Of a DNA stretch of 41,264 bases, positions 4,083 through 41,254 are shown piece by piece. The notes beneath the pieces were generated by a model. That model was not told where the DNA came from, ran no database searches, and saw nothing but the letters and a program-made list of their open reading frames with translations. The translations under genes were made by a program, and so were the position numbers. Within the stretch, counting starts at the first letter, position 1, and each line of letters opens with the position of its first letter. Origin of the DNA: Asaia bogorensis (GTDB taxonomy: Bacteria > Pseudomonadota > Alphaproteobacteria > Acetobacterales > Acetobacteraceae); assembly GCA_945897825.1 (NCBI GenBank), contig CAMDGX010000036.1:1-41264 (forward strand), given 5' to 3'.

Positions 4083-4252
4083 GGAAGCAAGATTCTTCTT
4101 TTTCTGAAGAAAAAGAAGCAAAAAGACTTTCTTCCATTGGCGCGCGGAGGGGCGGTGTTATGCCTCCCCGGCGCCGGGCGGCGCTCCCGGCGCCATGGAT
4201 GAAGTTTTTTTGCTTCTTTTTGTTCACAAAAAGAAGGCCCTTCCTTCCTTTC
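4083..4252. repeat. AT-rich composite inverted repeat, copy 1
   Basis: Left arm at 4083-4138 and right arm at 4194-4252, separated by a GC-rich spacer. The left arm holds a 10-bp hairpin (CTTCTTTTTC, loop TGAA, GAAAAAGAAG) followed by CAAAAAGACTTT. The right arm is its reverse-complement counterpart, with stem CTTCTTTTTG, loop TTCA. The inner parts of the arms can also pair over more than 20 bp, and the spacer ends (CCATTGGCGC and GGCGCCATGG) extend the dyad. This copy lies between divergently oriented starts (the lyase and the GMC oxidoreductase), so here it cannot serve as a 3' end for either gene. Confidence 0.9.
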
Positions 4253-4297
4253 CGGCTTCCGCCCACATTTGCGCGCGTGGTCGGGAGGGGGTTCCGG

Positions 4298-5998
4298 ATG
4301 GACGAGATGTTCGACATTGCCATCGCTGGCGGCGGGTCGGCGGGGGCGGTGCTGGCGGCCCGGTTGACCGAGGTGGCGGGGTTGCGGGTGGCGCTGGTGG
4401 AGGCGGGGCCGGGGATCGATCCGGCGAATGTGCCGGCGGTTCTGGCGAGCCAGTATGCCGGGCGGGCGCAGTTCAATCCGGACTGGTTCTGGACCGAGCT
4501 GAAGGCGACGTTCGGGGAGCTGAAGTCGAACCAGCCGGGGGCGGCGCGGGGGTATGAACAGCCGCGGGTTCTGGGCGGCGGGTCGAGCGTGAATGGGATC
4601 GGGGCCAACCGGGGGCAGCCTTCGGACTATGACGAGTGGGCGGACCAGGGCGCGGCGGGGTGGGGGTGGAGCGAGGTGCTGCCGTATTTCCGCAAGCTGG
4701 AGCGGGAGCTGGTGCATGGCGGGGAGTTGCACGGCAAGGACGGGCCGCTGCCGATCCAGCATATTCCGCGCGGGGAGTGGACGGGGTTCACCAAGGCGGT
4801 GGCCGAGGCGGTGAAGCCGGAGGGGCTGGCGTTCGCCGAGGACCAGAACGGGGCGTGGCGGACGGGGATCATCCCGACCTCGATCAACGTGGACGAGCGC
4901 GGGCAGCGGGCGAGCACGGCGGTGGCGTATCTGACCGAGGCGGTGCGGCGGCGGCCGAATTTCTGCCTGTTGCCGATGACGCGGGTTTTGCGCGTGGTGG
5001 TTGAGGACGGGCGAGCGGTGGGGCTGCGCGTGCGCGACCAGGGAGAGGAGCGGGTGATCCGGGCGCGGCATGTGGTGGTGAGTGCCGGGGCGATCGGGTC
5101 GCCGGCGTTGCTGATGCGCAGCGGGATCGGGCCTGGGGGGCATTTGCGCGCGCGCGGGGTGGAGGTGGTGGCCGACCTGCCGGGGGTGGGGGAGAATCTG
5201 CAGGAGCATCCGGCGACGGGGGTTTCAGCGTTCCTGGCGCCGGGGGCGCGGGGGGCGGGGGGTGAGCGGTATCACTTGCAGACGCTGGTGCGGTGGTCTT
5301 CGGGGTTGGAAGGGACGCCGGAGGGGGACATGCACTGGGCGGTGTCGACGCGGAGCACCTGGCATGCGGTGGGCCGGCGGATCGGCGGGTTCTACGGGTG
5401 GGTGAACAAGAGCTATTCGCGCGGTCGGGTGCGGCTGGGGGAGGATATCGAGGCGGTGCCGGAGGTGGATTTCCGGATGCTGTCGGACCGGCGGGACCTG
5501 GTGCGGCTGATGCAGAGCTTCCGGATGAAGCTGCGGGTGCTGGAGCGGGCGCGCGCGGCGGGGGCGGTGCTGGAGATTTTTCCGAGTGGGTATTCGGAGC
5601 GGATCAAGGCGCTGGCGCGGCCGACTGCGCGCAACGGGCTGGTGATGGGGATCGCCGGGCCGATCATGGATGCGAGTGCTGCTCTGCGACGGCGGATGCT
5701 GGCGGTGGCGACCGAGAACGCGCCGGAGCCGGGGTTCCTGGCGGCGGATGACGATCGGCTGGAGGAGTATCTGCGGCGGGTGGTTGGGGGCGTGTGGCAC
5801 CCGTGCGGGACGTGCCGGATGGGCGCGGACGGCGATCCGATGGCGGTGGTTGACGCCACTGGTGCGGTGCGGGGGGTGGCGGGGCTTTCCGTGTGCGATG
5901 CCTCGGTGATGCCGACGATTCCGTGCGCGAATTTGAACGTGCCGGTGATCATGATCGCCGAGAAGATGGCGGATGGGTTGAAGGCGCGGGTGGGGTAG
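4298..5998 (+). CDS. GMC family FAD-dependent oxidoreductase
   Basis: A 566-residue glucose-methanol-choline oxidoreductase. The FAD-binding fold starts at once (IAGGGSAGAVLAARL, glycines at residues 11-16). It is followed by the GMC signature region VLGGGSSVNGIGANRG, the second signature SAGAIGSPALLMRSGIGP, and the C-terminal catalytic block VWHPCGTCRMG. Members oxidise alcohols such as choline, sugars or long-chain alcohols; the substrate cannot be told from sequence. The start at 4298 follows a GGGAGGGGG ribosome site. No signal peptide is visible, so a cytoplasmic enzyme is expected. The codons strongly prefer G at the third position. It converges on greB with a gap of only six bases. Confidence 0.92.
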   Translation: MDEMFDIAIAGGGSAGAVLAARLTEVAGLRVALVEAGPGIDPANVPAVLASQYAGRAQFNPDWFWTELKATFGELKSNQPGAARGYEQPRVLGGGSSVNGIGANRGQPSDYDEWADQGAAGWGWSEVLPYFRKLERELVHGGELHGKDGPLPIQHIPRGEWTGFTKAVAEAVKPEGLAFAEDQNGAWRTGIIPTSINVDERGQRASTAVAYLTEAVRRRPNFCLLPMTRVLRVVVEDGRAVGLRVRDQGEERVIRARHVVVSAGAIGSPALLMRSGIGPGGHLRARGVEVVADLPGVGENLQEHPATGVSAFLAPGARGAGGERYHLQTLVRWSSGLEGTPEGDMHWAVSTRSTWHAVGRRIGGFYGWVNKSYSRGRVRLGEDIEAVPEVDFRMLSDRRDLVRLMQSFRMKLRVLERARAAGAVLEIFPSGYSERIKALARPTARNGLVMGIAGPIMDASAALRRRMLAVATENAPEPGFLAADDDRLEEYLRRVVGGVWHPCGTCRMGADGDPMAVVDATGAVRGVAGLSVCDASVMPTIPCANLNVPVIMIAEKMADGLKARVG

Positions 5999-6004
5999 GG
6001 GCGG

Positions 6005-6621: not shown

Positions 6622-8469
6622 ATGTTCCGTTTCTTTGAAAACCTGCTGCGCCCGACCGAGGTCTCGCCCTCCAGCCCTCCGTCGGCGGAGGGGGGGCGGC
6701 ATGGGTTGGTGCGGTTCTACCTCCACTTCATCCGCCAGGTGCGCGGGTTGCTGGTGGCGCTGTTCTTCGCCGGGCTGCTGGTGGCGCTGATGGACGTGAC
6801 CATCCCGGTGATGATCGGGCGGGTGGTGGAGCTGGTCGGGCGGGTGCCGCCGGAGGTGATCCTGCGCGACCACTGGCACGAGATGCTGGCGATGGCCGTG
6901 GTGATGCTGGTGCTGCGGCCGGCGGCGCTGCTGCTGCGGGTGCTGATGACCAACCAGGCGATCAATGCCGGGATGACCAACCTGATCCGCTGGCAGAACC
7001 ACTGGCATGTGGTGCGGCAGAGCTGGAGCTTCTTCCAGAACGACTTCGCCGGGCGGATAGCCAACCGGGTGATGCAGACCGGGCCGAGCCTGCGCGAGAG
7101 CGTGGTGAGCGCCACCAACGCGGTTTGGTACATCATCGTGTACGGCACCTCGGCGGTGGTGCTGCTGGCGAGCATCGACGGGCGGCTGGCGATGCCGATG
7201 CTGGCGTGGTTCTGCGCCTATGTGCTGATGCTGCGCTACTTCGTGCCGCGGATGCGCGACCGCAGCCGGGCGATGAGCGAGGTTCGCTCGGGGCTGACGG
7301 GGCGGATCGTCGACAGCTACACCAATATCCTGACGGTGAAGCTGTTCGCGCGCGCCCGCGACGAGGACGATTTCGTGCGCGAGGCGATCGACGAGCACAC
7401 GACGACGTTCCGCCGGCAGCTGCGGATGACGACGCGCTACATCCTGACGCTGAACCTGATCAACGCGTGCCTGATCGTCGGCACCGGGGCGATGGCGATC
7501 TGGCTGTGGCGGATGGGGGAGGTGAGCGTGGGCACGGTGGCGATGGCGCTGCCGCTGGCCTGGCAGATCTCCAACATGGCCGGCTGGGTGGGCGACAACG
7601 TGACGATGATCTTCGAGAACGTCGGCGTGGTGCAGGAGGGGATGCGCTCGATCGCGGTGCCGCGGCAGATGCCGGATGCGGCGGACGCGAAGGAGCTGGA
7701 GGTTTCGAAGGGGGAGATCCGGTTCGAGGGGGTGCGGTTCGGGTACGGCACGGCGCGTGGGGTGCTGCATGACCTCGACCTGCATATCCGGCCCGGGGAG
7801 CGGGTGGGGCTGGTGGGGCATTCCGGCGCGGGGAAGTCCACGCTGGTGAACCTGCTGCTGCATTTCCACGCCCCCGAGGCGGGGCGGATCACCATCGACG
7901 GGCAGGATATCGCGCGGGTGACGCAGGAGAGCCTGCGCACGCAGATCGCGATGGTGACGCAGGACACCTCGCTGCTGCACCGCTCGATCCGGCAGAACAT
8001 CGCCTATGGCCGGCCCTGGGCGAGCGAGGCGGAGATCCGCGCGGCGGCGGACCAGGCGGAGGCGACGGATTTCATCGAGCTGCTGGAGGACTGGAACGGG
8101 CGGCGCGGGTTCGATGCGCATGTGGGCGAACGCGGGGTGAAGCTTTCGGGCGGGCAGCGGCAGCGGGTGGCGATCGCGCGGGTGATCCTGAAGAACGCGC
8201 CGATCCTGGTGCTGGACGAGGCGACTTCGGCGCTCGATTCCGAGGTGGAGGCGGCGATCCAGGGACAACTTGAAACACTGATGCGGGGGCGGACGGTGAT
8301 CGCCATCGCGCACCGGCTTTCCACCATCGCGCGGATGGACCGGCTGGTGGTGATGGAGAACGGGCGGATCGTCGAGCAGGGCACGCATGCCGAGTTGCTG
8401 GCGGTGGGCGGGGCGTATTCGCGGATGTGGCTGCGGCAGTCGGGCGGGTTCGCGGAGGCGGCGGAGTAA
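6622..8469 (+). CDS. ABC transporter, fused permease and ATPase (exporter type)
   Basis: A 615-residue half-transporter with an N-terminal membrane domain and a C-terminal nucleotide-binding domain, which should work as a homodimer in the inner membrane. Hydrophobic segments lie near residues 40-60, 90-115, 170-215 and 280-330. In the ATPase, Walker A (GHSGAGKST) is near residue 400, the signature LSGGQRQR near 507, Walker B with D-loop (ILVLDEATSALDSE) near 528 and the H-loop (IAHRLST) near 562. The family exports lipids, drugs or peptides; substrate unknown. A GCGAGGGCGG stretch just upstream of the ATG may act as ribosome site. The stop codon TAA runs directly into repeat copy 2. Confidence 0.92.
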   Translation: MFRFFENLLRPTEVSPSSPPSAEGGRHGLVRFYLHFIRQVRGLLVALFFAGLLVALMDVTIPVMIGRVVELVGRVPPEVILRDHWHEMLAMAVVMLVLRPAALLLRVLMTNQAINAGMTNLIRWQNHWHVVRQSWSFFQNDFAGRIANRVMQTGPSLRESVVSATNAVWYIIVYGTSAVVLLASIDGRLAMPMLAWFCAYVLMLRYFVPRMRDRSRAMSEVRSGLTGRIVDSYTNILTVKLFARARDEDDFVREAIDEHTTTFRRQLRMTTRYILTLNLINACLIVGTGAMAIWLWRMGEVSVGTVAMALPLAWQISNMAGWVGDNVTMIFENVGVVQEGMRSIAVPRQMPDAADAKELEVSKGEIRFEGVRFGYGTARGVLHDLDLHIRPGERVGLVGHSGAGKSTLVNLLLHFHAPEAGRITIDGQDIARVTQESLRTQIAMVTQDTSLLHRSIRQNIAYGRPWASEAEIRAAADQAEATDFIELLEDWNGRRGFDAHVGERGVKLSGGQRQRVAIARVILKNAPILVLDEATSALDSEVEAAIQGQLETLMRGRTVIAIAHRLSTIARMDRLVVMENGRIVEQGTHAELLAVGGAYSRMWLRQSGGFAEAAE

Positions 8470-8586
8470 GGAAGCGGTTCTTTTCTGAAAAAATTTCTAT
8501 CCTTTTGCCTCGGGTTCGATCCGTTTGGCACCGGTGCCATGGATGAAGTTTTTTTGCTTCTTTTTGTTCACAAAAAGAAGACTCTA
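8470..8586. repeat. AT-rich composite inverted repeat, copy 2 (left arm decayed)
   Basis: The left arm at 8470-8507 starts with GGAAGC right after the TAA stop of the ABC gene. It keeps TTCTTTTC and TGAA but has lost the perfect stem. The right arm at 8538-8580 is intact: ATGGATGAAG, then a T-tract, then the hairpin CTTCTTTTTG, loop TTCA, CAAAAAGAAG. The centre is the perfect palindrome GGCACCGGTGCC at about 8527-8538. The convergent DUF374 gene ends inside the right-arm hairpin: its TGA stop (8568-8570 on the minus strand) lies in the loop. Confidence 0.85.
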
Positions 8587-9245
8587 GCCTTCTCTGCCGC
8601 TTCGCTGATCGCCGCCTCGATGGTTGGCAGGCTGTCTTCCCATCCTTCGCGCGGGACGCTGATCGGCGGGCCGACGACCAGGACGCCGCGGCCCCAGGGC
8701 AGGGGCAGCATCATCCGATCCCAGGTGGGCAGGTGCCAGGCGCGGCTGGTGCGGGCGGCGCAGGGGAGCACGGGGACGCCGGAGAGGGCGGCGAGCTGGG
8801 CCACGCCGGGGGCGGCGCAGCGCGGCGGGCCGCGCGGGCCGTCGGGGGTGAGGACGACGTGGCTGCCTTGGGCGAGCACATCGAGCAGGGCGCGGACGCT
8901 GGCGGCCCCGCCCTTGTCGCGGCCGTCGCGGGCGGTGGAGCCGTGCACGACCTCCAGGCCGAAGCTTCGCATGATGTCGCCGATGAAGCGGCCGTCGGCG
9001 TGGCGGCTGGCCAGGGCGTGCGCGCGCGCGCCGGGGCGACGGATGCGCAGCCAGAGGGCGGGCATGAGCGGCAGGCATTCGTGCCAGAGCGCGGCGACGG
9101 CGGGCTGGCCGGCGGCGTGGGGGGCGAGATGGGCCTCGCCTTCGAGCGTCCAGCGCGTGGTGCGCAGCGCGAACGCCAAGTAGCGGCCGAGCAGGGCGGC
9201 GAGCCATGCCTGGACGGCCGGGCGACGCAGGAACGACTTGAGCAT
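8568..9245 (-). CDS. Lysophospholipid acyltransferase-like protein, DUF374 family
   Basis: A 225-residue membrane-associated acyltransferase-like protein of the DUF374 family, thought to act on lipids such as lipid A or phospholipid precursors. The N-terminus (MLKSFLRRPAVQAWLAALL then LRTTRW) matches the usual family start. The core has ALWHECLPLMPAL, SRHADGRFIGDIMRSFGLE and VVLTPDGPRGPP, the last a strong family motif. The start at 9245 is chosen by family alignment; an in-frame ATG about 90 bp upstream is possible. The last codons (Val-Phe-Phe-Leu-stop) come from the right arm of repeat copy 2, so the natural C-terminus appears to have been replaced by repeat sequence. Confidence 0.85.
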   Translation of the reverse strand: MLKSFLRRPAVQAWLAALLGRYLAFALRTTRWTLEGEAHLAPHAAGQPAVAALWHECLPLMPALWLRIRRPGARAHALASRHADGRFIGDIMRSFGLEVVHGSTARDGRDKGGAASVRALLDVLAQGSHVVLTPDGPRGPPRCAAPGVAQLAALSGVPVLPCAARTSRAWHLPTWDRMMLPLPWGRGVLVVGPPISVPREGWEDSLPTIEAAISEAAEKARVFFL

Positions 9246-9369: not shown

Positions 9370-11955
9370 ATGGCGGGACGGACGATCAGCACCAGCAGCG
9401 TCGGCACGGTGCAACTGGGCGAGACGGACAACCCGCTGACCGTGACCGCCACGGGCACCATCGCCAGCACCAATGCCAATGCGCTGGAGACGGCGGGGAC
9501 GGCGGACTGGGTGATCGGCAATGCCGGCACGATCAGCGCCAGCGGCACGGCCGGCGTCGGCATCCAGCTGAACTCCGGCTTCGGCTCGGCCGGCGGGACG
9601 ATCACCAACGAGGCGACCGGGCGGATCGAGGGCGCCACCTACGCGATCTACAGCCTCAAGGCCTCCACCGTCAGCAACGCCGGCACCATCGTCAGCACCG
9701 GGGAGTCCAAGGGCGCCGGCGTGCTGATCGGCCCCGGCACGGTGACCAATGCGGGCCCGGCGGCGCTGATCAGCGGGCCGCGCTATGGCGTTTACTTCTA
9801 CGCCGGTGCCGGGCGGGTGACGAACACCGGCACGATCGGCAGCCCGAACGGCTTCGGCGTGTTCCTGTCCAAGGGCGGCGAGGTGGACAACCAGGCGGGC
9901 GGCCATCTGACGGCCGGGCTGGTCGGCGCGTATGTGCTGGGCACCGCCGACTCCTCGGTGGTCAACGCGGGCAGCATCTCGGGGCGGTTCGGAGTGCTGA
10001 GCACCAACCCCGCCTCGACAGTGACGAATGCCGGCAGCATCCAGGCGACGGGCAAATCCGGGCAGGGCAATTCGAACGAGTTGACCGGGTCGGGCGTGCA
10101 GATGCGCAACGGCGGCACGATCGTGAACGCGGCGGGCGGGGTGATCGACGGCTACTGGATCGGGGCGCAGATCGGCAGCTTCAACGGCGCCAACGCCAAT
10201 GGCGGCGCGGTGATCAATGCTGGCACGATCCTTGCCAACGATCCCGGCGTTTCGGGCGCGGCGGTGTGGTTCAAGGGCGACGGGCGGATCGAGAACGCGG
10301 CAACCGGCACGATCGGCGACGGGCCGTTCGGCATCGTGACCTACAACACCGTGTCGGTGGTGAACGCGGGCACGATTGGCGGCAACCGGGCGCTGCTGTT
10401 CGGCGGGCAGGGGCGGATCGACAACCTTGCCGGCGGCTCGATCGTCGGCACGGCGCGGGGTATCGAGATCGCCGGCACCACGACGATCGCCAATCGCGGC
10501 GTGATCGGCGGCGGGGCGTTTGCCGTGTTGAACACGGTGCAGGGCTCGGGCGACCGGATCGTCACCTATCCCGGCGCGTCGTTCCTGGGCACGGTGATGG
10601 GCGATGCGGATGGGGCGCCATCGCCGAACGGGGTGCTGCAACTGGCGGCCGGCGCCGGGACGGGGAGCGTGGTGGGGTTCGGCAGCCAGTATCTCGGCTT
10701 CGGCCGGGTGGAGGTGGATGCCGGGGCAAGCTGGTCGCTGGCCGGCACGGTGGGCAGCGGGCAGACGGTGGCGCTGGGCACGGGGGCCGTGCTGACGCTG
10801 GCCGATCCGGCGGCGATGGCCGGTGTGATCGCGGGGTTCGACGCGACGACGGGGCTGGTGCTGGGGGGCGTGACGGACGCGACGTCGGCGGTGCTGGACG
10901 ACGGCAACGTGCTGACGGTGTCGCGCGCGGGCGGCGCGCCGGTGGTGCTGCGGTTCGACCCCTTGCAGGCGTTCGGCCCGGGGGCGTTCGGGCTTTCGGC
11001 GCAGGGCGCGGGAACGGCGCTGGCGGCGCCGTGCTTCGCGATGGGGACGCGGATCGCCACCCCGGCCGGGGAGGTGGCTGTGGAGGCGTTGGCGGCGGGG
11101 ATGCCGGTTCTGCTGGCGCGGGGCGGCGTGGCGGAGGTGGTGTGGGTGGGGCACCGGAGGGTGGAGTGCCGGCGGCATCCGCGGCCGGAGGAGGTCTGGC
11201 CGGTGCGGGTGGCGGCGGGCGCGTTCGCGCGCGGGGTGCCGGGGCGCGACCTGTTGCTGAGTCCGGACCATGCGGTGTTCTGGGAGGGCGTGCTGATCCC
11301 GGTGCGCCACCTGGTGAACGGGCGGACAGTGCGCCAAGAGGCGGTGGATGCGGTGACGTATTTCCATGTCGAGCTGGCGGCGCACGACGTGCTGCTGGCC
11401 GAGGGGCTGGCGTGCGAAAGCTATCTCGACACCGGCAACCGGGCTGCCTTCGCCAATGGCGGGGCGGCGATGATGCTGCATCCGGATTTCGCGCGCGGGC
11501 GGTGGGCGGCTTCGGGCTGCGCGCCGCTGGTGGAGGCGGGGCCGGCGGTGGCGGCGGCGCGGTCACGGCTGTTGGCGCGGGCGGGGGCGATGGGGCTCCG
11601 GCGCGGGTCGGACGCGGGGCTGGTGGTGCGGGCGGATGGGGTGGCGCTGGCGGTGGCGGCCTCCGGCGCGCGGCGGGAGGTGGCGTTGCCGGAGGGGGTG
11701 CGGGCAGTGGCGCTCGAGTCGCGGTGCTGGGTGCCGGCGGAGATGGGCGGCAGCGAGGATGCGCGCCGGCTGGGCGTGGCGGTGGGGCGGGTGCGGCTGG
11801 ATGGGGAGGCGGCGCCGGATTCGTGCTTCGGAGCCGGGTGGCATGCCGCGGAAGGGGCGTTGCGCTGGAGCGACGGGTGCGGCTGGCTGCATCTGCGCGG
11901 GGCGCGGCGCTTGTCGTTCGAGTTGGCGACGGGCGGGGTGTATTGGGCAGCCTAG
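9370..11955 (+). CDS. Large beta-helix protein with C-terminal Hint_2 (hedgehog/intein-like) domain
   Basis: An 861-residue protein. Residues 1 to about 500 are low-complexity, Gly/Ala/Thr-rich and hold about eleven rungs of the type VSNAGTIVS, VTNTGTIGS, VVNAGSISG, VINAGTILA, VVNAGTIGG. This is the pattern of a right-handed beta-helix as in autotransporter passengers. A Hint domain begins at Cys555 (PCFAMGTRIATPAGEVAVEA) and has the second-block histidine in LLLSPDHAVF and the closing strand YFHVELAAHDVLLAEGLACE. Hint domains perform an N-S acyl shift that can cleave or transfer the N-terminal part. No Sec signal peptide and no C-terminal autotransporter barrel are seen. Surface or exported adhesin is an inference; the export route is unknown. 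About 160 residues follow the Hint domain. The TAG stop abuts repeat copy 3. Confidence 0.85.
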   Translation: MAGRTISTSSVGTVQLGETDNPLTVTATGTIASTNANALETAGTADWVIGNAGTISASGTAGVGIQLNSGFGSAGGTITNEATGRIEGATYAIYSLKASTVSNAGTIVSTGESKGAGVLIGPGTVTNAGPAALISGPRYGVYFYAGAGRVTNTGTIGSPNGFGVFLSKGGEVDNQAGGHLTAGLVGAYVLGTADSSVVNAGSISGRFGVLSTNPASTVTNAGSIQATGKSGQGNSNELTGSGVQMRNGGTIVNAAGGVIDGYWIGAQIGSFNGANANGGAVINAGTILANDPGVSGAAVWFKGDGRIENAATGTIGDGPFGIVTYNTVSVVNAGTIGGNRALLFGGQGRIDNLAGGSIVGTARGIEIAGTTTIANRGVIGGGAFAVLNTVQGSGDRIVTYPGASFLGTVMGDADGAPSPNGVLQLAAGAGTGSVVGFGSQYLGFGRVEVDAGASWSLAGTVGSGQTVALGTGAVLTLADPAAMAGVIAGFDATTGLVLGGVTDATSAVLDDGNVLTVSRAGGAPVVLRFDPLQAFGPGAFGLSAQGAGTALAAPCFAMGTRIATPAGEVAVEALAAGMPVLLARGGVAEVVWVGHRRVECRRHPRPEEVWPVRVAAGAFARGVPGRDLLLSPDHAVFWEGVLIPVRHLVNGRTVRQEAVDAVTYFHVELAAHDVLLAEGLACESYLDTGNRAAFANGGAAMMLHPDFARGRWAASGCAPLVEAGPAVAAARSRLLARAGAMGLRRGSDAGLVVRADGVALAVAASGARREVALPEGVRAVALESRCWVPAEMGGSEDARRLGVAVGRVRLDGEAAPDSCFGAGWHAAEGALRWSDGCGWLHLRGARRLSFELATGGVYWAA

Positions 11956-12092
11956 GAAGCATGTTCTTTTTTGAAAAAAAGAACCAAAAAACTTTTATCC
12001 ATTTGGGCGGCGTTTGACCTGCTGCCGGGGTGCCAAGGGATGAAAAGTCTTTTTGCTTCTTTTTCTTCAGAAAAAGAAGATCCTTTCTTTCT
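11956..12092. repeat. AT-rich composite inverted repeat, copy 3
   Basis: The left arm (11956-12003) follows the TAG stop of the Hint gene. Its stem GTTCTTTTT, loop TGAA, AAAAAGAAC has the outer pair switched from C-G to G-C relative to copy 1. The right arm (12039-12092) has CTTCTTTTTC, loop TTCA, GAAAAAGAAG and ends immediately before the ATG of the sulfotransferase gene. The two genes are codirectional, so any terminating or processing activity here would separate them. Confidence 0.9.
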
Positions 12093-13877
12093 ATGAGCTG
12101 CGCCTGCGGCAGCCTGCTGCGCCCGATGCGCTGCTGCGCCATGGACCTGGCGACGGCGAGCCTGCCCGGCTCGGCGTTGCTGCTGGCGCCGCAGATCCGC
12201 GCGGCGGAGGAGGCGCGGCAGGCGGGCGAGGCGGATCGGGCGACCGGGATCCTGTTGCAGGTGCTGGAGCTGGCGCCATGGGCGCCGGCGGCGTTGATGG
12301 TGCTGGCGCGCATCCACCAGCAGGCCGGGCGGCTGGGGGCGGCGGCGGTGCTGCTGGCGCGGGTGGTGGCGGTCGATCCTGCCAACCAAGAGGCGGTGCG
12401 CGAGGCGGCGCGGGTGGCGCTGAACCGGGGCGACATCGCGGGCGCGCTGGGCCATGCGCGCAATGCGGTGCGCGGCGATCCGCTGTCGGCGGATGCGCAT
12501 CACCTGCTGGGCCTGGCGCTGACCGAAGCGAACCGGGCGGTGGCGGGGGAGCATCACTACCGGCGGGCGCTGGAACTGGCGGGCCGGCGCGATGCGATCG
12601 TGCTGGCCAATCTGGCGTGGAACCTCAAGGCGCAGGGGCGGATCGTCGAGAGCCGGGCGCTGTATGCCGAGAGCCGGGCGGCCGCGCCCGATGTGCTGAC
12701 CACGCTGCTGGGCGAGGCGCGGATGGAGGAGGCGGCGGGCGCGCTGGACCGGGCGGCTGCGCTGCTGGACCAGGCGCGGGCGGTGGCGCCGGGTGCGCCG
12801 GGGGTGGATCTGGCACGCGCGGTGGTGGCGGCGCGGCAGGGGGCGCGGGAGCATGCGCTTTCGGTGCTCGACGGGATGGCGGAGACCGGCGCGCCGGCGG
12901 TGCTGATGGAGAAGGGGCGGCTGCTGGACCGCATGGGCCGGCCAAAGGCGGCCTTCGCGGCCTGGACGGAGGGCAAGCGGCGCCTGCGCGAGGCGACCGG
13001 GCAGGACTACGAGACGGCGGCGGCGGAGGCGCTGGCGGGGCGGCTGCGTGGGTTCTTCACGGCGGAGCGGCGGCGCCTGTTGCCGCGGGCGCCGGTGGCC
13101 GCCGGCGCGCAGCCGGTGTTCATTCTGGGCTTTCCGCGCTCCGGCACCACGCTGGTGGAGCAGATGCTGTCGGCGCATCCGGCGATCGCGGCCGGCGACG
13201 AGCTGCCGCTGGTGGGCGACCTGGCGGCGATGGTGCCGCGGGTGCTGTCGAGCTCGCTGCCCTATCCGGAGGCGCTGGCCGATCTGTGGATGGGCGACGA
13301 GGCGGATGGGTTGGAGACACTGCGCGACCATTATCTACGGCGGGTGCGGGGCATGGGGATCGTCGGGCCGGGTCAGGCTTGGTTCACCGACAAGATGCCG
13401 CTGAACGAATGGCACCTGGGGCTGCTCGGCATGGTGTTCCCGGCCAGCCCGATCATCCTGCTGGTGCGCCATCCGGCCGACGTGGTGCTGTCGGTGTTCG
13501 GCAACGAGCTGACGCATGGGTTCCACTGCGCCTATTCGCTGGAGGGGGCGGCGCGGCATTTCGCGCTGACGGCGGAGCTGGTGGCGCATTGCCGGGCGAC
13601 GCTGGCGCTGCGGCTGCTGCCGGTGCGCTACGAGGATCTGGTGGACGACCCGGAGGCGACCGTGCGGCGGATGCTGGATTTCATCGGCCTGCCGTTCGAC
13701 CCCGCCTGCGTGGCGCCGCACGAGAACGCGCGGTATGCGCGCACGGCGAGCTACGCGCAGGTGACGGAGAAGGTCTACGACCGCTCGCGCCTGCGCTGGC
13801 TGGCCTATCGCGAGCAGTTGGCCCCGGTGCTGCCGATCCTGGCGCCGGCGATCGCGCGGCTGGGCTACGACGCATGA
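12093..13877 (+). CDS. TPR-containing sulfotransferase family protein
   Basis: A 594-residue protein. Residues about 20-330 form alpha-helical TPR-like repeats (for example GILLQVLELAPWAPAALMVL and HHYRRALELAGRRDAIVLAN). The C-terminal part is a sulfotransferase: the 5'-phosphosulfate loop FILGFPRSGTTLVEQMLSAH near residue 345 and the 3'-phosphate motif LLVRHPADVVLSVFGNEL near residue 458 bind PAPS. The acceptor (peptide tyrosine, carbohydrate or lipid) is unknown. The start is uncertain: 12093 is chosen because codons from there on are fully GC at the third position, while the sequence just upstream is repeat; ATG at 12141 is an alternative. The stop overlaps the next start in ATGA. Confidence 0.88.
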   Translation: MSCACGSLLRPMRCCAMDLATASLPGSALLLAPQIRAAEEARQAGEADRATGILLQVLELAPWAPAALMVLARIHQQAGRLGAAAVLLARVVAVDPANQEAVREAARVALNRGDIAGALGHARNAVRGDPLSADAHHLLGLALTEANRAVAGEHHYRRALELAGRRDAIVLANLAWNLKAQGRIVESRALYAESRAAAPDVLTTLLGEARMEEAAGALDRAAALLDQARAVAPGAPGVDLARAVVAARQGAREHALSVLDGMAETGAPAVLMEKGRLLDRMGRPKAAFAAWTEGKRRLREATGQDYETAAAEALAGRLRGFFTAERRRLLPRAPVAAGAQPVFILGFPRSGTTLVEQMLSAHPAIAAGDELPLVGDLAAMVPRVLSSSLPYPEALADLWMGDEADGLETLRDHYLRRVRGMGIVGPGQAWFTDKMPLNEWHLGLLGMVFPASPIILLVRHPADVVLSVFGNELTHGFHCAYSLEGAARHFALTAELVAHCRATLALRLLPVRYEDLVDDPEATVRRMLDFIGLPFDPACVAPHENARYARTASYAQVTEKVYDRSRLRWLAYREQLAPVLPILAPAIARLGYDA

Positions 13878-17175: not shown

Positions 17176-18723
17176 ATGCAGCTGATCCAGGGGCTGAACC
17201 GTGCGGTGACGATCAACCCGGGCGGGACTGCGACGATCTTTCGTGCGCGGCGATTCACCTGGGGCGCGGTGGGCGAGCGCATCGCGCGGCTGGCCGGCGG
17301 GCTGGCGCGGCTGGGGGTCGCACACGGCGAGCGGGTGGCGATCCTGGCGCTGAACAGCGACCGCTACTGGGAGGCGATGTACGCGATCCCCGGCCTCGGC
17401 GCGATCATGGTGCCGCTGAACACGCGCCTCGCGCCGCCGGAGATCGCCTTCATGCTGGCCGACAGCGGGGCGCGGGTGCTGCTGGTGGACGATGCCTTCG
17501 CGGCGATGCCAGAGCGGCTGGCCGGGCAGATGGGGGCGGTGGCGCATGTGGTGCACATCGGCGAGGCCGCGACACCTTCGGGGATGATCGCCTGGGAGTC
17601 GCTGCTGGACGGGCGGCCGGACGGGTTCGGCACGGCGGGCGGCGATGACGTGGCCGGGATCTTCTACACCGGCGGCACCACCGGGCGCTCCAAGGGGGTG
17701 ATGCTGTCGCACCGCAACCTTGTGTCGAACGCGGCGATGGTGATCCCGGCGATGGGCTACCGGCACGACAGCGTCTACATCCATGCCGGTCCGATGTTCC
17801 ACCTGGCCGACGGGGCGAGCACCTTCGCGGTGACGATGGTGGCCGGCACGCATGTGTTCATCCCGCGCTTCGACCCCGGCGACATGCTGGCGGAAATCGC
17901 GAAGCACCGAGTGACGAACGCGCTGCTGGTGCCGACCATGATCAACGCGACGGCGAACTTCCCCGAAATCGGCAAGCACGACGTCTCCAGCCTGCGCACG
18001 ATCCCCTACGGCGCCTCGCCGATGCCCGATGCGGTGCTGCAGCGCGCCAAGCAGACGATGCCGACGGTGCGCTGGCTGCATGTGTACGGCATGAGCGAGG
18101 CCTCGCCGATCGTCACCGCCATGGACATCGACCAGAAGGAGCCCGAGGGGCGGCGGGCGCAAAGCTGCGGGCGGCCGGCGGTGCTGGTGGATGTGCGCAT
18201 CGCCGACGAGAACGACGCGGAGGTGCCGCGCGGCACGGTGGGCGAGGTGCAGGTGCGCGGCCCGAACATCATGCTCGGCTACTGGAACCTGCCGGATGCG
18301 ACGGCCAATGCGCTGCGCGGCGGCTGGTACCACAGCGGCGACGGCGGCGTAATGGACGAGGACGGCTACGTCTATATCGTCGATCGGCTGAAGGACATGA
18401 TCATCAGCGGCGGCGAGAACATCTATTCCGCCGAGGTCGAAAGCGCGATCTCGACGCTGGACGGGGTGGCGGAAGTGGCGGTGATCGGCATTCCCGACGA
18501 CAAATGGGGCGAGACCGTCCATGCCGTCGTGGTGCCGCGCGCCGGGCGGGAGATCTCCGTCGACGCCGTGGTCGCGCACTGCCGGGAGATGATCGCCGGC
18601 TACAAGGTGCCGCGCAGCGTGGAGATCCGGGCGGAAGGCCTGCCGCTGTCCGGGGCGGGGAAGGTGCTGAAGACGGTGCTGCGGGAGCCGTTCTGGGCGG
18701 GGCGGACAAAGCAGGTGAGCTGA
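17176..18723 (+). CDS. AMP-dependent acyl-CoA synthetase
   Basis: A 515-residue ANL-superfamily ligase that activates a carboxylic acid to acyl-AMP and then acyl-CoA. The core motifs are present in order: FYTGGTTGRSKGVMLSH (P-loop A3), the A5 motif YGMSEASP, the hinge DRLKDMIISGGENIYSAEVE and the C-terminal lysine motif PLSGAGKVLKTVLRE. The fatty-acid or aromatic-acid specificity cannot be told. The start is chosen for the strong GGGAGGGGGG just upstream; an upstream in-frame ATG lacks such a site. The TGA stop runs into repeat copy 4. Confidence 0.92.
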   Translation: MQLIQGLNRAVTINPGGTATIFRARRFTWGAVGERIARLAGGLARLGVAHGERVAILALNSDRYWEAMYAIPGLGAIMVPLNTRLAPPEIAFMLADSGARVLLVDDAFAAMPERLAGQMGAVAHVVHIGEAATPSGMIAWESLLDGRPDGFGTAGGDDVAGIFYTGGTTGRSKGVMLSHRNLVSNAAMVIPAMGYRHDSVYIHAGPMFHLADGASTFAVTMVAGTHVFIPRFDPGDMLAEIAKHRVTNALLVPTMINATANFPEIGKHDVSSLRTIPYGASPMPDAVLQRAKQTMPTVRWLHVYGMSEASPIVTAMDIDQKEPEGRRAQSCGRPAVLVDVRIADENDAEVPRGTVGEVQVRGPNIMLGYWNLPDATANALRGGWYHSGDGGVMDEDGYVYIVDRLKDMIISGGENIYSAEVESAISTLDGVAEVAVIGIPDDKWGETVHAVVVPRAGREISVDAVVAHCREMIAGYKVPRSVEIRAEGLPLSGAGKVLKTVLREPFWAGRTKQVS

Positions 18724-18853
18724 AGGAAGAGTCTTCTTTTTTCTGAAGAAAAAAGACTTTTTTCCATTTGCACCGTGACAGGGAGTTCATCTCCCCAGCC
18801 AATGGATAAAAGTTTTTTGGTTCTTTTTTCCAAAAAAGAACCGCTTCCTTGCT
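18724..18853. repeat. AT-rich composite inverted repeat, copy 4
   Basis: The left arm (18724-18769) has lost about ten bases of the segment that elsewhere reads GAAGCAAAAA, but keeps the loop TGAA. The right arm (18802-18850) has stem GGTTCTTTTT, loop TCCA, AAAAAGAACC. It ends three bases before the TAA stop of convergent priA. The start of the spacer (TCCATTTGCACCGTG) is identical to copy 9, more than 22 kb away. Confidence 0.88.
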
Positions 18854-26548: not shown

Positions 26549-26559
26549 CAGGGCGCGAA

Positions 26560-26696
26560 GGAAGGAAGAATCTTCTTTTTCTGAAGAAAAAGAAGCAAAA
26601 AGACTTTCATCCATGGCGCCGTGGCCTGAACGCACAGCGTTATGGGGGCGAAAGTTTTTTGGTTCTTTTTTTCAAAAAAGAACATGCTTGCCTTCT
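26560..26696. repeat. AT-rich composite inverted repeat, copy 7, inside the dnaX-ybaB-recR operon
   Basis: The left arm (26563-26614) has CTTCTTTTTC, loop TGAA, GAAAAAGAAG. The right arm (26650-26694) has GTTCTTTTT, loop TTCA, AAAAAGAAC. It lies between the ybaB stop (TAG, three bases inside its right edge region) and the recR start, both on the minus strand. It therefore separates recR from a gene group that is normally contiguous. Confidence 0.9.
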
Positions 26697-27020
26697 CTAG
26701 AACGGCAGCTTCATTCCGGGCGGAATCGGCAAGCCGGCGGTCAGCTTCTGCATCTCTTCCTGCCCGAAGGTCTCCGCCTTGCGCTTGGCATCGCCATGGG
26801 CGGCAACGATCAGGTCCTGGAGCATCTCGGCATCGCCATCGGTGACCAGCTTGGGGTCGATGCGGATGCCGCGCATCTCGCCCTTGCCGTTGAGCGTGAC
26901 GCTGACCATGCCGGCCCCGGCGCTGCCTTCAACCTCCATGCCGGCCAGCTTGGCCTGCATCTCCTCCATCTTCTGCTGCATCTGCGAAGCCTGCTTGAGC
27001 ATGCCGGCAAGGTTCTTCAT
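26697..27020 (-). CDS. YbaB/EbfC family nucleoid-associated protein
   Basis: A 107-residue DNA-binding protein of the YbaB/EbfC family. It shows the usual N-terminus ([20 protein letters not shown]), a central strand region ([20 protein letters not shown]), and a C-terminal helix ending in [15 protein letters not shown]. It forms dimers that coat DNA. Its start codon overlaps the dnaX stop in ATGA. Position between dnaX and recR is the standard bacterial arrangement. Confidence 0.95.
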
Positions 27021-28943: not shown

Positions 28944-29048
28944 AGGTGGGAGGCCGAACGAACAACCCGGGCGTAAACTCGTTGCGGCTGCTTCCTTCCG
29001 GACCTGACCGGGTTGGCGAGGCGCCCGTCCGCCGCCGACCTCCCGCCC
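28944..29048 (-). ncRNA. ffs: Bacterial signal recognition particle RNA (4.5S, small type)
   Basis: Read on the minus strand, the region holds the SRP RNA apical signature GGTCAGGTCCGGAAGGAAGC followed by AGCC, which forms the symmetric and asymmetric internal loops and the GGAA tetraloop that bind Ffh. Flanking segments pair: the 5' GGGAGG near 29045 with the 3' CCTCCC near 28950, and the GC-rich segments between. The length of about 100 nt fits the small SRP RNA. Exact ends are estimated from the pairing. It lies about 35 bp upstream of dnaX on the same strand, the usual alphaproteobacterial place. Confidence 0.92.
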
Positions 29049-29144: not shown

Positions 29145-30092
29145 ATGATCCGCGTGCCCCTGATCCTTGCCAGCCGCCCCAACGCCTATTCCGGCAGCCC
29201 GCTGGACCGCGCCGCGCACCACCGCGACGACCCGGCCTGGATCGAGGCGGCCCTGGCCTCCGACCTGGCCCTGTTCACCCCGGTGTGGCGCGCGCGCAGC
29301 CTGATGCGCGGCGTGGAGGAAGGCCGGCCGGAAGCGGTGTTCCTCACCGGCCCGGCAGCCGCGGCGATGCTGGTGCGCGGCTGGCCCGATGGCGGCATCT
29401 GGGCCTTCCTCGGCATGCAGGGCCCCAACCCGCTGTTCGCCCTGGACATCAGCCCGGAGAACGACCCCCTGCCGCTGCTGCCGCCCGAAATGGGTCAGTT
29501 CACCGACCTGCGCACCGTCGCCGGCCTGCTGCCCGGCAACGACGCCTCCATCCTCGCCCACGCCCGCGGCCTGATGCACTGGCGCACCAAGCACCGCTTC
29601 TGCGGCGTCTGCGGCACCGCCTGCCGGCCCAAATCCGCCGGCCACGCCATGGTATGCCCGGCCTGCAACGCCTCGCACTTCCCCCGCACCGACCCCGCTG
29701 TGATCATGCTGGTGCACCGCGGCGACCGCGCCCTGCTCGGCCACTCCCGCCGCTTCCCCAACTCCACCATGTATTCCACCCTTGCCGGCTTCGTGGAGCC
29801 GGGCGAAACCCTGGAGGAGGCGGTGGCCCGCGAGGTATTCGAGGAAGCCGGGGTGCGAGTGGCCAACGTGCAATACCACTCCAGCCAACCCTGGCCCTTC
29901 CCCGCCTCGATCATGCTCGGCTTCTACGCCGAAGGGCTGACCGAGGAGATCACCATCGACCCGGAAGAAATCGCCGACGCCCGCTGGTTCTCCCGCGACG
30001 ACATGCGCCGGCACCGCGACCTCGGCTTCCAGCTGCCGCGCGCGGATTCGATCGCGCGGCGGCTGATCGAGGATTGGCTCGCGGCGGAGTAG
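29145..30092 (+). CDS. nudC: NADH pyrophosphatase (NAD-capped RNA decapping hydrolase) NudC
   Basis: A 315-residue Nudix hydrolase that splits NADH and removes NAD caps from RNA. The zinc-ribbon CGVCGTACRP with MVCPACNASHFPR is followed by the Nudix box GFVEPGETLEEAVAREVFEE ending AGV, and by the NADH-specific motif SQPWPFPAS. The N-terminal domain is the usual variable part. GAGGA just before the ATG is the likely ribosome site. The gene is divergent from ffs/dnaX; the TAG stop abuts repeat copy 8. Confidence 0.95.
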   Translation: MIRVPLILASRPNAYSGSPLDRAAHHRDDPAWIEAALASDLALFTPVWRARSLMRGVEEGRPEAVFLTGPAAAAMLVRGWPDGGIWAFLGMQGPNPLFALDISPENDPLPLLPPEMGQFTDLRTVAGLLPGNDASILAHARGLMHWRTKHRFCGVCGTACRPKSAGHAMVCPACNASHFPRTDPAVIMLVHRGDRALLGHSRRFPNSTMYSTLAGFVEPGETLEEAVAREVFEEAGVRVANVQYHSSQPWPFPASIMLGFYAEGLTEEITIDPEEIADARWFSRDDMRRHRDLGFQLPRADSIARRLIEDWLAAE

Positions 30093-30227
30093 GAAGGAAG
30101 AGTCTTCTTTTTGTGAACAAAAAGAAGCAAAAAAACTTCTTCCATTGCGCCGAGCCAGACGGCCAGCGCCGATGCAAGAGTTGAAAGTTTTTTGCTTCTT
30201 TTTTTCAAAAAAGAAGCGCTTTCTTTC
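30093..30227. repeat. AT-rich composite inverted repeat, copy 8
   Basis: It begins right after the nudC stop. The left arm has CTTCTTTTTG, loop TGAA, CAAAAAGAAG, so its inner pair is G-C where copies 1, 7 and 9 have C-G. The right arm has CTTCTTTTT, loop TTCA, AAAAAGAAG, with a T-A inner pair. The right edge meets the TAA stop of the convergent DUF1178 gene. It fills the whole gap between the two genes. Confidence 0.9.
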
Positions 30228-30683
30228 TTACCCGTCCGCCCGCGGCACCCACGGTATCCGCGAGAACGCCACCCCTTCCTCCGCCAGCGCCTCCGCCTCG
30301 TCCGGCGCGGTCTCGCCGTAGATGGGGCGCGGTTCGGCGATGCCGGTGTGGATCTTGCGCGCTTCCTCGGCGAAATCGGCGCCGACGTAGTCGCAGTTCT
30401 TCTCCACCTCCGCGCGCAGCTTCTGCAGCATGGCACGGACATGGTCCGGGATCTGCTGCCCGGCGACGGCCGGGGCGGGGGACGGCGCAGGCGGCGGCGG
30501 GTCGGCGGTGATCCGCCCCTTGCGCGGCACGTTGGGGGCCATGAGCGCGCGATCCACCGTCGTGCTGCCGCAATGCGGGCACTCCAGGAGCTTGCGCTTC
30601 GCCTGCTGCTCAAAGCTGGCCGAGCTGTTGAACCAGCTGTCGAACTCGTGGCCGTCGTCGCAACGCAGGGTGTAGTGGATCAT
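30228..30683 (-). CDS. DUF1178 family protein
   Basis: A 151-residue protein of the DUF1178 family, function unknown. The N-terminus MIHYTLRCDDGHEFDSWF and the pair of cysteines in LLECPHCGSTTVDRALMAP suggest a small metal-binding domain. A Pro-rich linker follows, then a conserved C-terminal helix region (LRAEVEKNCDYVGADFAEEA and IYGETAPDEAEAL). The start at the conserved MIHYTL is preferred to an in-frame ATG five codons upstream. Confidence 0.87.
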   Translation of the reverse strand: MIHYTLRCDDGHEFDSWFNSSASFEQQAKRKLLECPHCGSTTVDRALMAPNVPRKGRITADPPPPAPSPAPAVAGQQIPDHVRAMLQKLRAEVEKNCDYVGADFAEEARKIHTGIAEPRPIYGETAPDEAEALAEEGVAFSRIPWVPRADG

Positions 30684-39403: not shown

Positions 39404-39530
39404 CCGGCCCTCCTCCACCGCCGCCACCCAAGCCGCAGCCGCGCCGTCACGCAAGGGGGCGGCACAGCATGGTTGCCCGCGCCCTCCCGCCGCCCTACAT
39501 CCCGCGCGAGATCAAACAGGAGGCTCCACG

Positions 39531-41117
39531 ATGAAGCGGCGTCAGGTTCTCGGCGGATTTGCGGCAACAAGCGCGGCGCTGGCCGTCCCCAACATCGTCC
39601 AGGCGCAGAACCGGCGCGTGCTGAAATTCGTCCCCGACGCCGACCTCGCCATCATCGACCCGGTCATCACCACCAGCTACCAAACCCGCGACCACGGCTT
39701 CATGGTGTTCGACAGCCTGTACGGCCAGGACGACCAGTACCGCATCCGCCCGCAGATGGCCGAGGGCCACGTGGTCGAGGACGACGGCAAAACCTGGAAG
39801 ATCACCCTGCGCGACGGCCTGAAGTTCCACGACGGCGAGCGCGTCACGGCGAAGGACTGCGTCGCCTCCATCCAGCGCTGGGGCAAGCGCGACAGCTTCG
39901 GCCAGGCCCTGATGGCCAACACCCACGAGCTCGACGCGCCCGACGACAAGACCATCCGCTTCCGCCTCAAAAGCCCCTTCCCGCTGCTGCTCGACGCGCT
40001 GGGCCACTACTCGCCCAACATGCTCGCCATCATGCCCGCCCGCCTCGCCGAGACCGACGCCGCCCGCCAGCTCACCGAAATGGTCGGCAGCGGCCCGTTC
40101 CGCTTCAAGGCCGACGAGCGCGTCCCCGGCAGCCGCGTGGTCTATGAGAAGTTCGCCGACTACGTGCCCCGCAACGAGCCCGCCGAGCGCACCGCCGGCG
40201 GCAAGGTCGTGCATTTCGACCGCATCGAATGGACCATCATCCCCGACGTCTCGGCCGTCGCCAACGGGCTGACCCAGGGCGAGATCGACTGGTGGGCCAC
40301 CCCCGCCGCCGACCTGCGCCCCATCCTCGCCCGCTCGCGCAACGTGAAGCTGTTCACCATGGTCCCCACCGGCACCATCGCGACCATGCGCTTCAACCAG
40401 CTCCAGCCGCCCTTCGACAATCCGGCCATCCGCCGCGCCATCGTACAGGCCGTCACCCAGTCCGACTACATGATCGCCATCCAGGGTGAGGACAAACAGC
40501 TCTGGCGCGACGGCGTCGGCTATTTCTGCCCCGACACCCCGATGGACAACCGCGCCGGCATGGAGAACCTCACCAGCCCGCGCAACCTGGAGAACGTCAA
40601 GCGCCTGCTCGCCGAGGCCGGCTACAAGGGCGAGAAAGTCGTCCTCCTCGCCCCGCAGGACATCCCCTCCACCAAGGCGATCGCCGAGGTCAGCTTCGAC
40701 CTGTTCAAGCGCATCGGCCTGAACGTGGAGGCCCAGGCGATGGACTGGGCCACCGTCGTCCAGCGCCGCACCAAGCAGGAGCCGGTCGACCAGGGCGGCT
40801 GGAGCGTCTTCCACACCTCCTGGGGCGGCGTCGACCAGTTCAACCCGGCCGTGCACGCCTTCCTGCGCGGCAACGGCAAGGCCGGCATCATGGGCTGGCC
40901 GCAAAGCCCGACCATCGAGGCCCTGCGCGCCGAATGGTTCCTCGCGCCGGACCTCGCCGCCCAGAAGAAGGTCTGCGAAACCATGCAGCTCCAGGCCTTC
41001 CGCGACGTGCCCTACATCCCCCTCGGCCAGGTCCGCAGCCAGAGCGCCCACCGCGCCAACCTCGAAGGCGTGCTCACCGGCCTGCCGGTGTTCTGGAACG
41101 TCAAGCGCAGCGCCTGA
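39531..41117 (+). CDS. ABC transporter substrate-binding protein, family 5 (peptide/nickel type), Tat-exported
   Basis: A 528-residue periplasmic binding protein. The N-terminus KRRQVLGGFAATSAALAVPN has a twin-arginine pattern, with probable cleavage after VQA near residue 25. The SBP_bac_5 fold is seen in YQTRDHGFMVFDSLYG, KTWKITLRDGLKFHDGERVT, VGSGPFRFKADERVPGSR and FDNPAIRRAIVQAVTQSDYM. It would bind a peptide or similar ligand for an ABC importer, but no permease or ATPase gene is visible here, and the next gene seems to be on the other strand. CAGGAGG precedes the ATG. The TGA stop lies directly before repeat copy 9. Confidence 0.92.
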   Translation: MKRRQVLGGFAATSAALAVPNIVQAQNRRVLKFVPDADLAIIDPVITTSYQTRDHGFMVFDSLYGQDDQYRIRPQMAEGHVVEDDGKTWKITLRDGLKFHDGERVTAKDCVASIQRWGKRDSFGQALMANTHELDAPDDKTIRFRLKSPFPLLLDALGHYSPNMLAIMPARLAETDAARQLTEMVGSGPFRFKADERVPGSRVVYEKFADYVPRNEPAERTAGGKVVHFDRIEWTIIPDVSAVANGLTQGEIDWWATPAADLRPILARSRNVKLFTMVPTGTIATMRFNQLQPPFDNPAIRRAIVQAVTQSDYMIAIQGEDKQLWRDGVGYFCPDTPMDNRAGMENLTSPRNLENVKRLLAEAGYKGEKVVLLAPQDIPSTKAIAEVSFDLFKRIGLNVEAQAMDWATVVQRRTKQEPVDQGGWSVFHTSWGGVDQFNPAVHAFLRGNGKAGIMGWPQSPTIEALRAEWFLAPDLAAQKKVCETMQLQAFRDVPYIPLGQVRSQSAHRANLEGVLTGLPVFWNVKRSA

Positions 41118-41254
41118 AGCAGGACTCTTCTTTTTCTGAAGAAAAAGAAGCAAAAAGACTTTTCGTCCATTTGCACCGTGGCTTCACGTTAGAGCCCGGT
41201 GCAAATGGACAAAGTTTTTTGGTTCTTTTTTTCAAAAAAGAACCGCTTCCTTTC
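41118..41254. repeat. AT-rich composite inverted repeat, copy 9 (most complete)
   Basis: The left arm has CTTCTTTTTC, loop TGAA, GAAAAAGAAG, then CAAAAAGACTTT. The right arm has GGTTCTTTTT, loop TTCA, AAAAAGAACC. Here the spacer is also a dyad: GTCCATTTGCACCG on the left and CGGTGCAAATGGAC on the right, around a small centre. The element therefore reads as one continuous inverted repeat from stop codon to the right edge. This copy is the best guide to the ancestral form. Confidence 0.92.

Follow-up and report, generated by a model that had tools for sequence, protein, structure and literature searches.

Asaia bogorensis and other Acetobacteraceae carry a short, AT-rich, two-armed palindromic element that mostly sits at the stop codons of genes, and the window analyzed in this study, the whole 41,264 bases of contig CAMDGX010000036.1 (C36) with a guanine + cytosine (G + C) content of 70.6%, contains nine sites of it. 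The genome assembly (GCA_945897825.1) comprises 4.93 Mb in 208 contigs. The element is dispersed as a unit of two unlike arms, is present or absent at the same sites of sister genomes, is placed at stop codons, has conserved arms and has a centre whose halves pair with each other, all of which are direct observations. We consider it rather probable, short of confident, that it is a dispersed non-autonomous mobile palindrome of the Acetobacteraceae, similar to miniature inverted-repeat transposable elements (MITEs) or bacterial interspersed mosaic elements (BIMEs), which enters at the stop codon, keeps its arms and is probably a two-way mRNA 3'-end element. In other words, the element looks like spreading DNA that has turned into punctuation between genes.

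According to this reading, the element would insert at a stop codon and its own purine-rich tip would rebuild the codon (T + AA or AG, or TG + A), so that the proteins of the host would be hardly affected by the insertion, if at all. The movement would be due to an enzyme supplied in trans, and the arms would probably be recognized by their sequence, either by this mobilizer or by a host protein. In the mRNA, the hairpin of the proximal arm would begin mostly 3–14 nucleotides (nt) past the stop codon and the whole element may form a long 3' hairpin, which might shield the 3' ends of mRNAs or have them trimmed, and might reduce read-through in both directions.

Including its tails, the element is about 115–170 bp long and is laid out as a tail, an arm hairpin, an A-tract and ACTTT, a variable self-complementary centre, the mirror arm and its tail. 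Read outward along the arm, the unit consists of ATGGA, AAAGT(C/T)TTTTTG, a hairpin (CTTCTTTTT-loop-AAAAAGAAG or GTTCTTTTTT-loop-AAAAAAGAAC) and a tail of CTTN repeats. The arms are AT-rich and near-invariant, lie head to head around the centre and are of two types, GGTTC (G type) and GCTTC (C type). An earlier note on this DNA had pointed out nine AT-rich sites, and all of them were borne out at their positions: every 60-mer of the window below 42% G + C overlaps a site or ends at most 4 nt away, an independent repeat search gave direct and inverted repeats common to different sites, and the pattern CTTCTTTTTN6AAAAAGAAG has eight matches in the window versus a mean of 0.00 in 100 shuffles. 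In addition, the whole genome gave 675 arm-hairpin matches versus none for a reversed-pattern control, and chance or base composition as the origin is excluded by the G + C scan, the shuffles and this control. The earlier note was right that both two-armed and single copies exist, but the split is not eight and one; counted by arms, seven sites are two-armed (4083, 11953, 18721, 23381, 26559, 30090 and 41115) while those at 8531 and 21797 have a single arm each. Its order of parts in the arm (edge, hairpin, A-tract to ACTTT, TCCAT, spacer, mirror) holds for most full copies, with TCCAT altered in some, and its density of one copy per 4–5 kb is true of the window (one per 4.6 kb) but not of the larger sample described below, where 66 elements in 840 kb amount to one in about 12.7 kb.

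This sample of the same genome consists of 40 fetched stretches (about 800 kb) plus the window, 840 kb in total, and contains 126 arms forming 66 elements, 58 of them two-armed with arms facing inward and eight single. Over the wider set of fetched sequence (2.79 Mb), neighbouring arms at most 160 nt apart were found in the inward arrangement 94 times, the outward one four times and the same direction once. The 58 two-armed copies are G/C in 46 cases, C/C in 11 and C/variant in one, and none is G/G, whereas free mixing of the arm types would predict about nine G/G copies by simple arithmetic. The copies must therefore have spread as whole units. The earlier note described the arms as mirror images, but they mostly belong to two different types and are no true mirror images. 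Moreover, whole copies, centre included, match other copies in the genome by BLAST mostly at 84–88% identity over about 139 bp among the matches listed. The element is thus short, non-coding and dispersed in many copies as a unit, like a MITE.

Genes in the sample were called by a purpose-written codon-based finder, for which Pfam matches and the NCBI annotation of two plasmid stretches were the only checks. Among 124 arms (two of the 126 were dropped at a flank check), 81 face the 3' end of a gene, 35 face a 5' end and eight have no gene nearby. The hairpin lies 3–14 nt from the stop codon in 70 of the 81 3'-facing arms and 3–18 nt from it in 73, while two others are entered by an open reading frame (ORF) and six are farther away. 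The stops at the 73 near arms are TAG (33), TAA (31) and TGA (9), in contrast to those over all genes, TGA (452), TAG (203) and TAA (68), with a Fisher p of about 1e-20; a wider tally of 75 arms includes the two ORF-entered arms, which the tally of 73 leaves out. The stop lies in the purine-rich tip of the element itself, as T + AAGGAAG, T + AGGAAG or TG + AAGCAAG. The element had been called intergenic, but most 3'-facing arm edges overlap the stop codon, and at 23381–23513 an ORF crosses the right arm.

The neighbouring gene is missing at the end of the stretch for four of the 66 elements, and 54 two-armed copies could be classified by context: 24 are in convergent, 27 in tandem and three in divergent gaps. 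Since all gaps number 110 convergent, 492 tandem and 116 divergent, the convergent ones are enriched (p = 8e-8) and the divergent ones depleted (p = 0.03). Both stops are within 0–20 nt in 19 of the 24 convergent copies, and the upstream stop is within 0–20 nt in 23 of the 27 tandem copies; for the 82 convergent gaps that are element-free, the median length is 29.5 nt. Furthermore, on the NCBI-annotated plasmids of Pseudoroseomonas cervicalis, the genes that run towards the element, three in all, stop with TAG, TAG and TAA directly at its edges. As a separate observation, G precedes the stop at 44 of the 73 near arms versus 154 of 642 element-free genes of the 840-kb sample, and, for TAA and TAG stops alone, at 40 of 64 versus 88 of 202 (p = 0.01); the excess is partly explained by the bias in stop-codon usage itself.

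Orthologous sites with and without the element were found in sister genomes. The two-armed G/C element at 26559–26696 lies between recR (25955–26548, minus strand, Pfam RecR domains), which is downstream of it, and ybaB/ebfC (26697–27020, minus strand, Pfam YbaB_DNA_bd), the TAG stop of which abuts its edge. This ybaB-recR junction is filled in the window and in four orthologous loci (L056, L057, L058 and L061), has lost one arm in L060 and carries a longer, different copy in L063, whereas in the empty loci L059 and L062 the gap is 6–7 nt. In 13 relatives that are more distant, ybaB likewise precedes recR and the element is absent, and L068 and L069 have another gene there. The closest RecR relatives found are mostly from Acetobacteraceae or from metagenome-assembled genomes of Rhodospirillales, with sources including a pond and Lake Pavin. 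Further filled and empty junctions were found in the sister genomes among the junctions listed; the 83 orthologous junctions count a site again when it was reached from different starting loci, so that the counts are not independent. In the window, the two-armed G/C element at 11953–12093 lies between tandem genes, its edge being the TAG stop of a Hint-domain gene (9370–11955), and the junction is empty in three genomes (G251, G171 and G244). The two-armed G/C element at 23381–23513 is at the TAG stop of a xerC-like integrase gene with a GT87 gene opposite, and the two genes overlap by 38 nt at the empty site (G251 and G212). Here the ORF of the GT87 gene (23454–24620, minus strand) continues through the right arm and ends in the spacer of the element, so the insertion altered the C-terminus of the GT87 protein.

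Protein C-termini are the same at filled and empty sites (AHPRG*, LPF*), which places the insertion at the ancestral stop. At the site L026:7302–7444, the empty sister G171 has TGA, while five filled genomes have TAG (one), TAA (three) and TGA (one) with the tip of the element directly next to it. What seems to be the original TGA survives at five distal edges, in four cases within a TGATG overlap of stop and start. Two sister genomes have wholly different centres at one convergent site, a finding that fits exchange or re-insertion. Of the suggestions in the earlier note, the non-autonomous mobile element is supported by presence or absence at orthologous sites, by the spread of the copies as units and by a copy number that varies patchily among genomes.

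The centre was studied from its pairing. The left halves of the centres vary (45% mean identity), and the halves pair better with their own partner (−16.76 kcal/mol) than with swapped ones (−14.42 kcal/mol) in a test on 51 of the 58 copies, and none of 5000 permutations reached the own-partner value; seven copies with too short a centre were left out, and one copy was left out of the corresponding test of the tails. The own partner is the very best in just three of the 51 copies, so this is a shift of the mean and not a lock-and-key fit. Covariation of the outer tails was not found (own −7.40 versus swapped −7.90). The pairing of the two arms with each other, claimed earlier, agrees with prediction: the lowest-energy RNA fold is one end-to-end hairpin in six folds of five copies, one of them folded on both strands, with −41 to −72 kcal/mol and z of −2.8 to −11. 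RNAalifold, applied to 38 of the 46 G/C copies (those with a spacer of 60–76 nt), gave just the two arm hairpins, with double changes at two of 20 pairs. In the arm hairpins, both the foot pair, which is G-C in one arm type and C-G in the second, and the pair that closes the loop (C-G, G-C or U-A) swap in a matched fashion, so that each arm hairpin is also maintained. No bias of the arm types relative to the direction of transcription was found (12 versus 9).

A dedicated bidirectional intrinsic terminator, kept for ending the transcription of both neighbours by an A-tract, a long stem and a U-tract in either direction, would agree with the enrichment in convergent gaps and at 3' ends and with the depletion in divergent gaps. 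The centre is a covarying stem preceded by A6 and followed by U5–6 in both reading directions, and terminators made of a GC-hairpin and a T-run are scarce at element-free 3' ends: 9 of 164 convergent ends (1.2 in shuffles), 3 of 104 tandem ends with gaps of at least 100 nt (0.8) and 4 of 356 with gaps under 100 nt (5.6). However, in 17 of the 27 tandem copies the distal hairpin is followed by the start of the next gene at a distance of 40 nt or less, and at ybaB-recR (L056, L057, L058 and L061) the start codon is only 0–3 nt away from the tail; a scan of positions 1–40000 of the window gave no sigma-70-type promoter-like site, inside the element or elsewhere, other promoter types being outside the scan. 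In the same positions, five of 14 arms reach the terminator pattern of the tool used, with no excess over shuffles (8 sites versus 8.1, and 7 versus 7.8). In addition, the arm sequence is conserved far beyond the needs of a hairpin and the presence of the element is patchy among genomes. Such a terminator is possible but unlikely as the reason for the element, and a strong all-or-none terminator is likewise unlikely, because copies sit inside operon-like tandem pairs. The 3'-end processing or termination device proposed in the earlier note thus fits the placement but not as an efficient terminator, and we favour a mobile unit that acts, in a leaky manner, as a 3'-end element in both directions. 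For repetitive extragenic palindromic (REP) sequences of E. coli no farther than 15 nt from a stop codon, an influence on translation is reported (PMC12306157), and most 3'-facing arms of the present element fall inside that range.

The arms themselves are the best kept part. In orthologous copies the identity is 2000/2028 (98.6%) in the arms, 901/1128 (79.9%, with many gaps) in the centre, 565/653 in the tails and 1638/1823 in the flanks of 30 nt per side; the pairs compared are not independent and one set of three pairs is listed twice. As far as these alignments indicate, the arms are kept better than the ends of the neighbouring genes, and in sequence, not in pairing alone. A protein that binds DNA or RNA in a sequence-specific manner, such as a nucleoid protein or an RNA chaperone, could have its paired sites in the arms, the centre setting just the spacing and a cruciform geometry. 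A protein-binding site was also one of the three options that the earlier note listed without a choice, and it would account for arms that stay nearly identical while the centre drifts. It would also suit the A and T tracts of near-constant length that recur along each arm. Judged by eye, the arms on the Pseudoroseomonas plasmids are identical or have a single difference in the loop, and those of further genera come close to this, which agrees as well. This explanation leaves the placement at stop codons and the rebuilt stop unexplained, however, and we regard it as quite improbable by itself.

Several points weigh against a mobile element that enters at stop codons and acts at mRNA 3' ends. 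There is no clear target-site duplication: of 35 distal edges, 13 have TA close to the tip, versus 5 of 35 for a stretch of the same length further out, a frequency too low for a clean TA target but too high to be dismissed, the sister genomes being too diverged in this respect. The tail length varies (stop 3–18 nt from the hairpin), which is odd for a fixed transposon end. The element is absent from 82 of the 110 convergent gaps and is therefore not required there. Outside the genus the 3' bias is weaker, with 25 arms facing a 3' end versus 19 facing a 5' end. Gene conversion among hundreds of copies could partly account for the conservation of the arms, and any role in RNA is putative. As to a mobilizer, the Y1 transposase of REP-associated tyrosine transposase (RAYT) type (PF01797) was not found in this genome at E ≤ 1e-3, and 11 of 12 fetched Y1-matching stretches are without arms, those in the remaining one (L161) being 0.9 kb or more away. 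The three IS630-type loci of the genome (L136–L138; one match to PF01710 and two to PF13358) have no arms either. Four L...R arm pairs spaced 300–3000 nt are candidates for an autonomous copy, but between three of these wide pairs none of the six ORFs searched, of seven, is a transposase, the second ORF of L192 and the ORF of L193 being outside this search; the ORFs between wide pairs encode a zincin, a helix-turn-helix/cupin protein, a HAD hydrolase, DUF779 and FIST proteins and one protein of 333 amino acids without a Pfam match.

Insertion by an IS630-type enzyme at TA was considered for its attractive agreement with TAA and TAG stops and was rejected, because the distal edges are mostly without TA and empty sites often end in TGA. 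No parent IS630 with matching ends was found in the genome, TA is not duplicated at both ends, and the fetched sequence, which at 2.79 Mb covers little of the carrier genomes, gave no autonomous relative with the same ends.

A REP or BIME family moved by a RAYT (Y1) transposase was also considered. Like the present element, REPs including the GTAG REPs are short palindromes, often paired and inverted, and their termini can supply stop codons (PMC3733652); GTAA or GTAG is found at 40 of the 73 near arms. Moreover, a Y1 match is more frequent where copies abound: 13 of the 56 genomes with at least ten arm matches have one, versus 14 of the 193 others (p = 0.002). Nevertheless, there is no fixed tag, GTAG being at 18 of the 73 near arms and CGTC in the first 24 nt of two of 75, and PF01797 is not matched in four of six copy-rich genomes of the same genus that were searched, the present one included. 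Unlike REPs and BIMEs, the element is AT-rich in a genome of 70% G + C, its arms are heterotypic and no RAYT was found alongside. CGTC repeats are reported to be missing from Acetobacteraceae (PMC3733652). We therefore hold such a family to be very unlikely, and a RAYT-carrying REPtron was rejected, since Y1 matches occur in some genomes but no gene flanked by arms was found. Two of the 12 Y1 matches are in frame within a large ORF that looks unrelated, 1434–3767 of L166 (G062) and 379–3951 of L167 (G137). The start of these large ORFs resembles, we presume, an adenine-specific DNA methylase.

The earlier note had proposed looking for further copies with a covariance model; by pattern, the motif proved plentiful in this genome and in related Acetobacteraceae. 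In a sample of the family, 86 of 249 genomes have at least one match and 56 have ten or more, with a maximum of 1210, and the reversed control gave a single match in each of five genomes. Copy number varies inside genera, for example 14, 476 and 1210 in one and 264, 234, 2 and 2 in another. All 200 genomes of an order-level sample turned out to belong to this family, and 62 of them have a match. Of 289 genomes sampled across the class, four belong to the family; the 285 others have 0–4 matches each, the level of the control, and high copy numbers are thus restricted to the Acetobacteraceae among the genomes sampled. Only two of 72,556 plasmid records match, both from Pseudoroseomonas cervicalis; they have the same build and the match has no annotated feature beneath it. 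From 13 genomes outside the genus, fetched stretches of nine contain arms and those of four contain none; 12 two-armed copies are G/C in nine cases, C/C in two and C/variant in one. Sixteen of the 25 3'-facing arms there are within 20 nt of a stop (TAA nine, TGA four, TAG three), and in one of these genomes, G153, none of four is. Lichenicola cladoniae, which we take to be a member of the Acetobacteraceae, is also relevant here. In that species 1,369 REPs were reported with the tool of one paper, and these may include the present element (PMC12306157).

Short dispersed palindromes and MITEs are already known as a kind. The RIME of the Rhizobiales is a cousin with two palindromes. No Rfam 15 family reaches the gathering score on the element, the small RNA of the signal recognition particle (SRP) being the only one to do so in the window, and the best sub-threshold match of one copy is the plastid psbA 3' untranslated region (UTR) family (27.8 bits versus 55.8 needed). 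The earlier note knew of no named element of this design; no Rfam or literature match was found in the searches made, but cousins that it did not mention are CIR and the GTAG REPs. In the present element, GANTC is at the foot of 28 of the 75 C arms (e.g. window 26559–26615), its third base being fully degenerate (A9, T8, C6, G5), and in the first 12 nt of none of the 49 G arms; other palindromic words are likewise enriched in the element. The genome has a RAMA-domain ORF at C115, and RAMA presumably occurs in CcrM. CIR of Caulobacter is likewise alphaproteobacterial and has two inverted-repeat arms and a linker, but its GANTC is exposed, as compared by description (PMC2229807). RUP is 107 bp, Correia elements are 107 and 155 bp, and ERIC reaches up to 711 copies in Photorhabdus and affects transcripts at gene 3' ends in Yersinia (PMC10969869, PMC2229807). 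The present element is short and dispersed like these, but unlike them it has no consistent TA duplication and no IS630 relative found, is placed at stop codons and has hairpins inside its arms. SPRITE, a pneumococcal element like a rho-independent terminator, and QMITE2 of Coxiella are small mobile elements proposed as terminators or located mainly in 3' UTRs (PMC10969869); their hosts differ, and the parts of their descriptions available for comparison contain no rebuilt stop. PMC2680597 was also among the works compared for palindromes and MITEs. The literature searched, which was available in part and mostly without subscription papers, does not describe an element that unites heterotypic invariant AT-rich arms with a covarying centre and a rebuilt stop.

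If the favoured reading of a mobile palindrome that enters at stop codons is true, the element would be an unusually clean case of mobile DNA sparing its host by landing on stops with a replacement codon, and one bacterial family would have hundreds of near-identical gene-end hairpins. The filled and empty orthologues would then be a natural experiment on what a stop-adjacent 3' hairpin does to translation, mRNA ends and read-through, and the conspicuous AT-rich repeat of these genomes would gain an explanation. In a bolder version, the stop-targeting, stop-rewriting element would have been co-opted family-wide as gene-end punctuation, a dedicated protein would read the arms, and the ribosome terminating on the stop supplied by the element would select between the arm hairpin and the end-to-end hairpin and hence the fate of the transcript 3' end; we think this rather unlikely.

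The other copies in the window are as follows. The two-armed element at 4083–4250, with both arms of the C type, is one of just three divergent placements among the 54 classified copies and lies between an HMGL-like gene (3062–4024, minus strand) and a GMC oxidoreductase gene (4298–5998, plus strand). The single C-type arm at 8531–8590 (plus strand, R orientation) has its hairpin 88 nt past the stop of an ABC-transporter gene (6622–8469, plus strand). The two-armed element at 18721–18857, the left arm of which has lost bases by a deletion, is between a convergent AMP-binding gene, the TGA stop of which overlaps its edge, and priA; that at 30090–30232, with both arms of the C type, fills the gap of two convergent stops (TAG on the left, TAA on the right); and the G/C element at 41115–41259 is at the TGA stop of a solute-binding-protein gene at the contig end. 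A single decayed G-type arm at 21797–21853 (plus strand) lies between a transaldolase-family gene and a DUF484 gene, and its orthologous site has two-armed copies in G171 and G119 and none in G033, G244, G251 and G249. In three loci (L144, L145 and L146), the transaldolase-family/DUF484 gap is 196 nt and holds a different sequence rich in CACAGAG/CTCTGTG inverted repeats. Lastly, a gene for the bacterial small SRP RNA is at 28946–29043 of the window (minus strand), upstream of dnaX-ybaB-recR.

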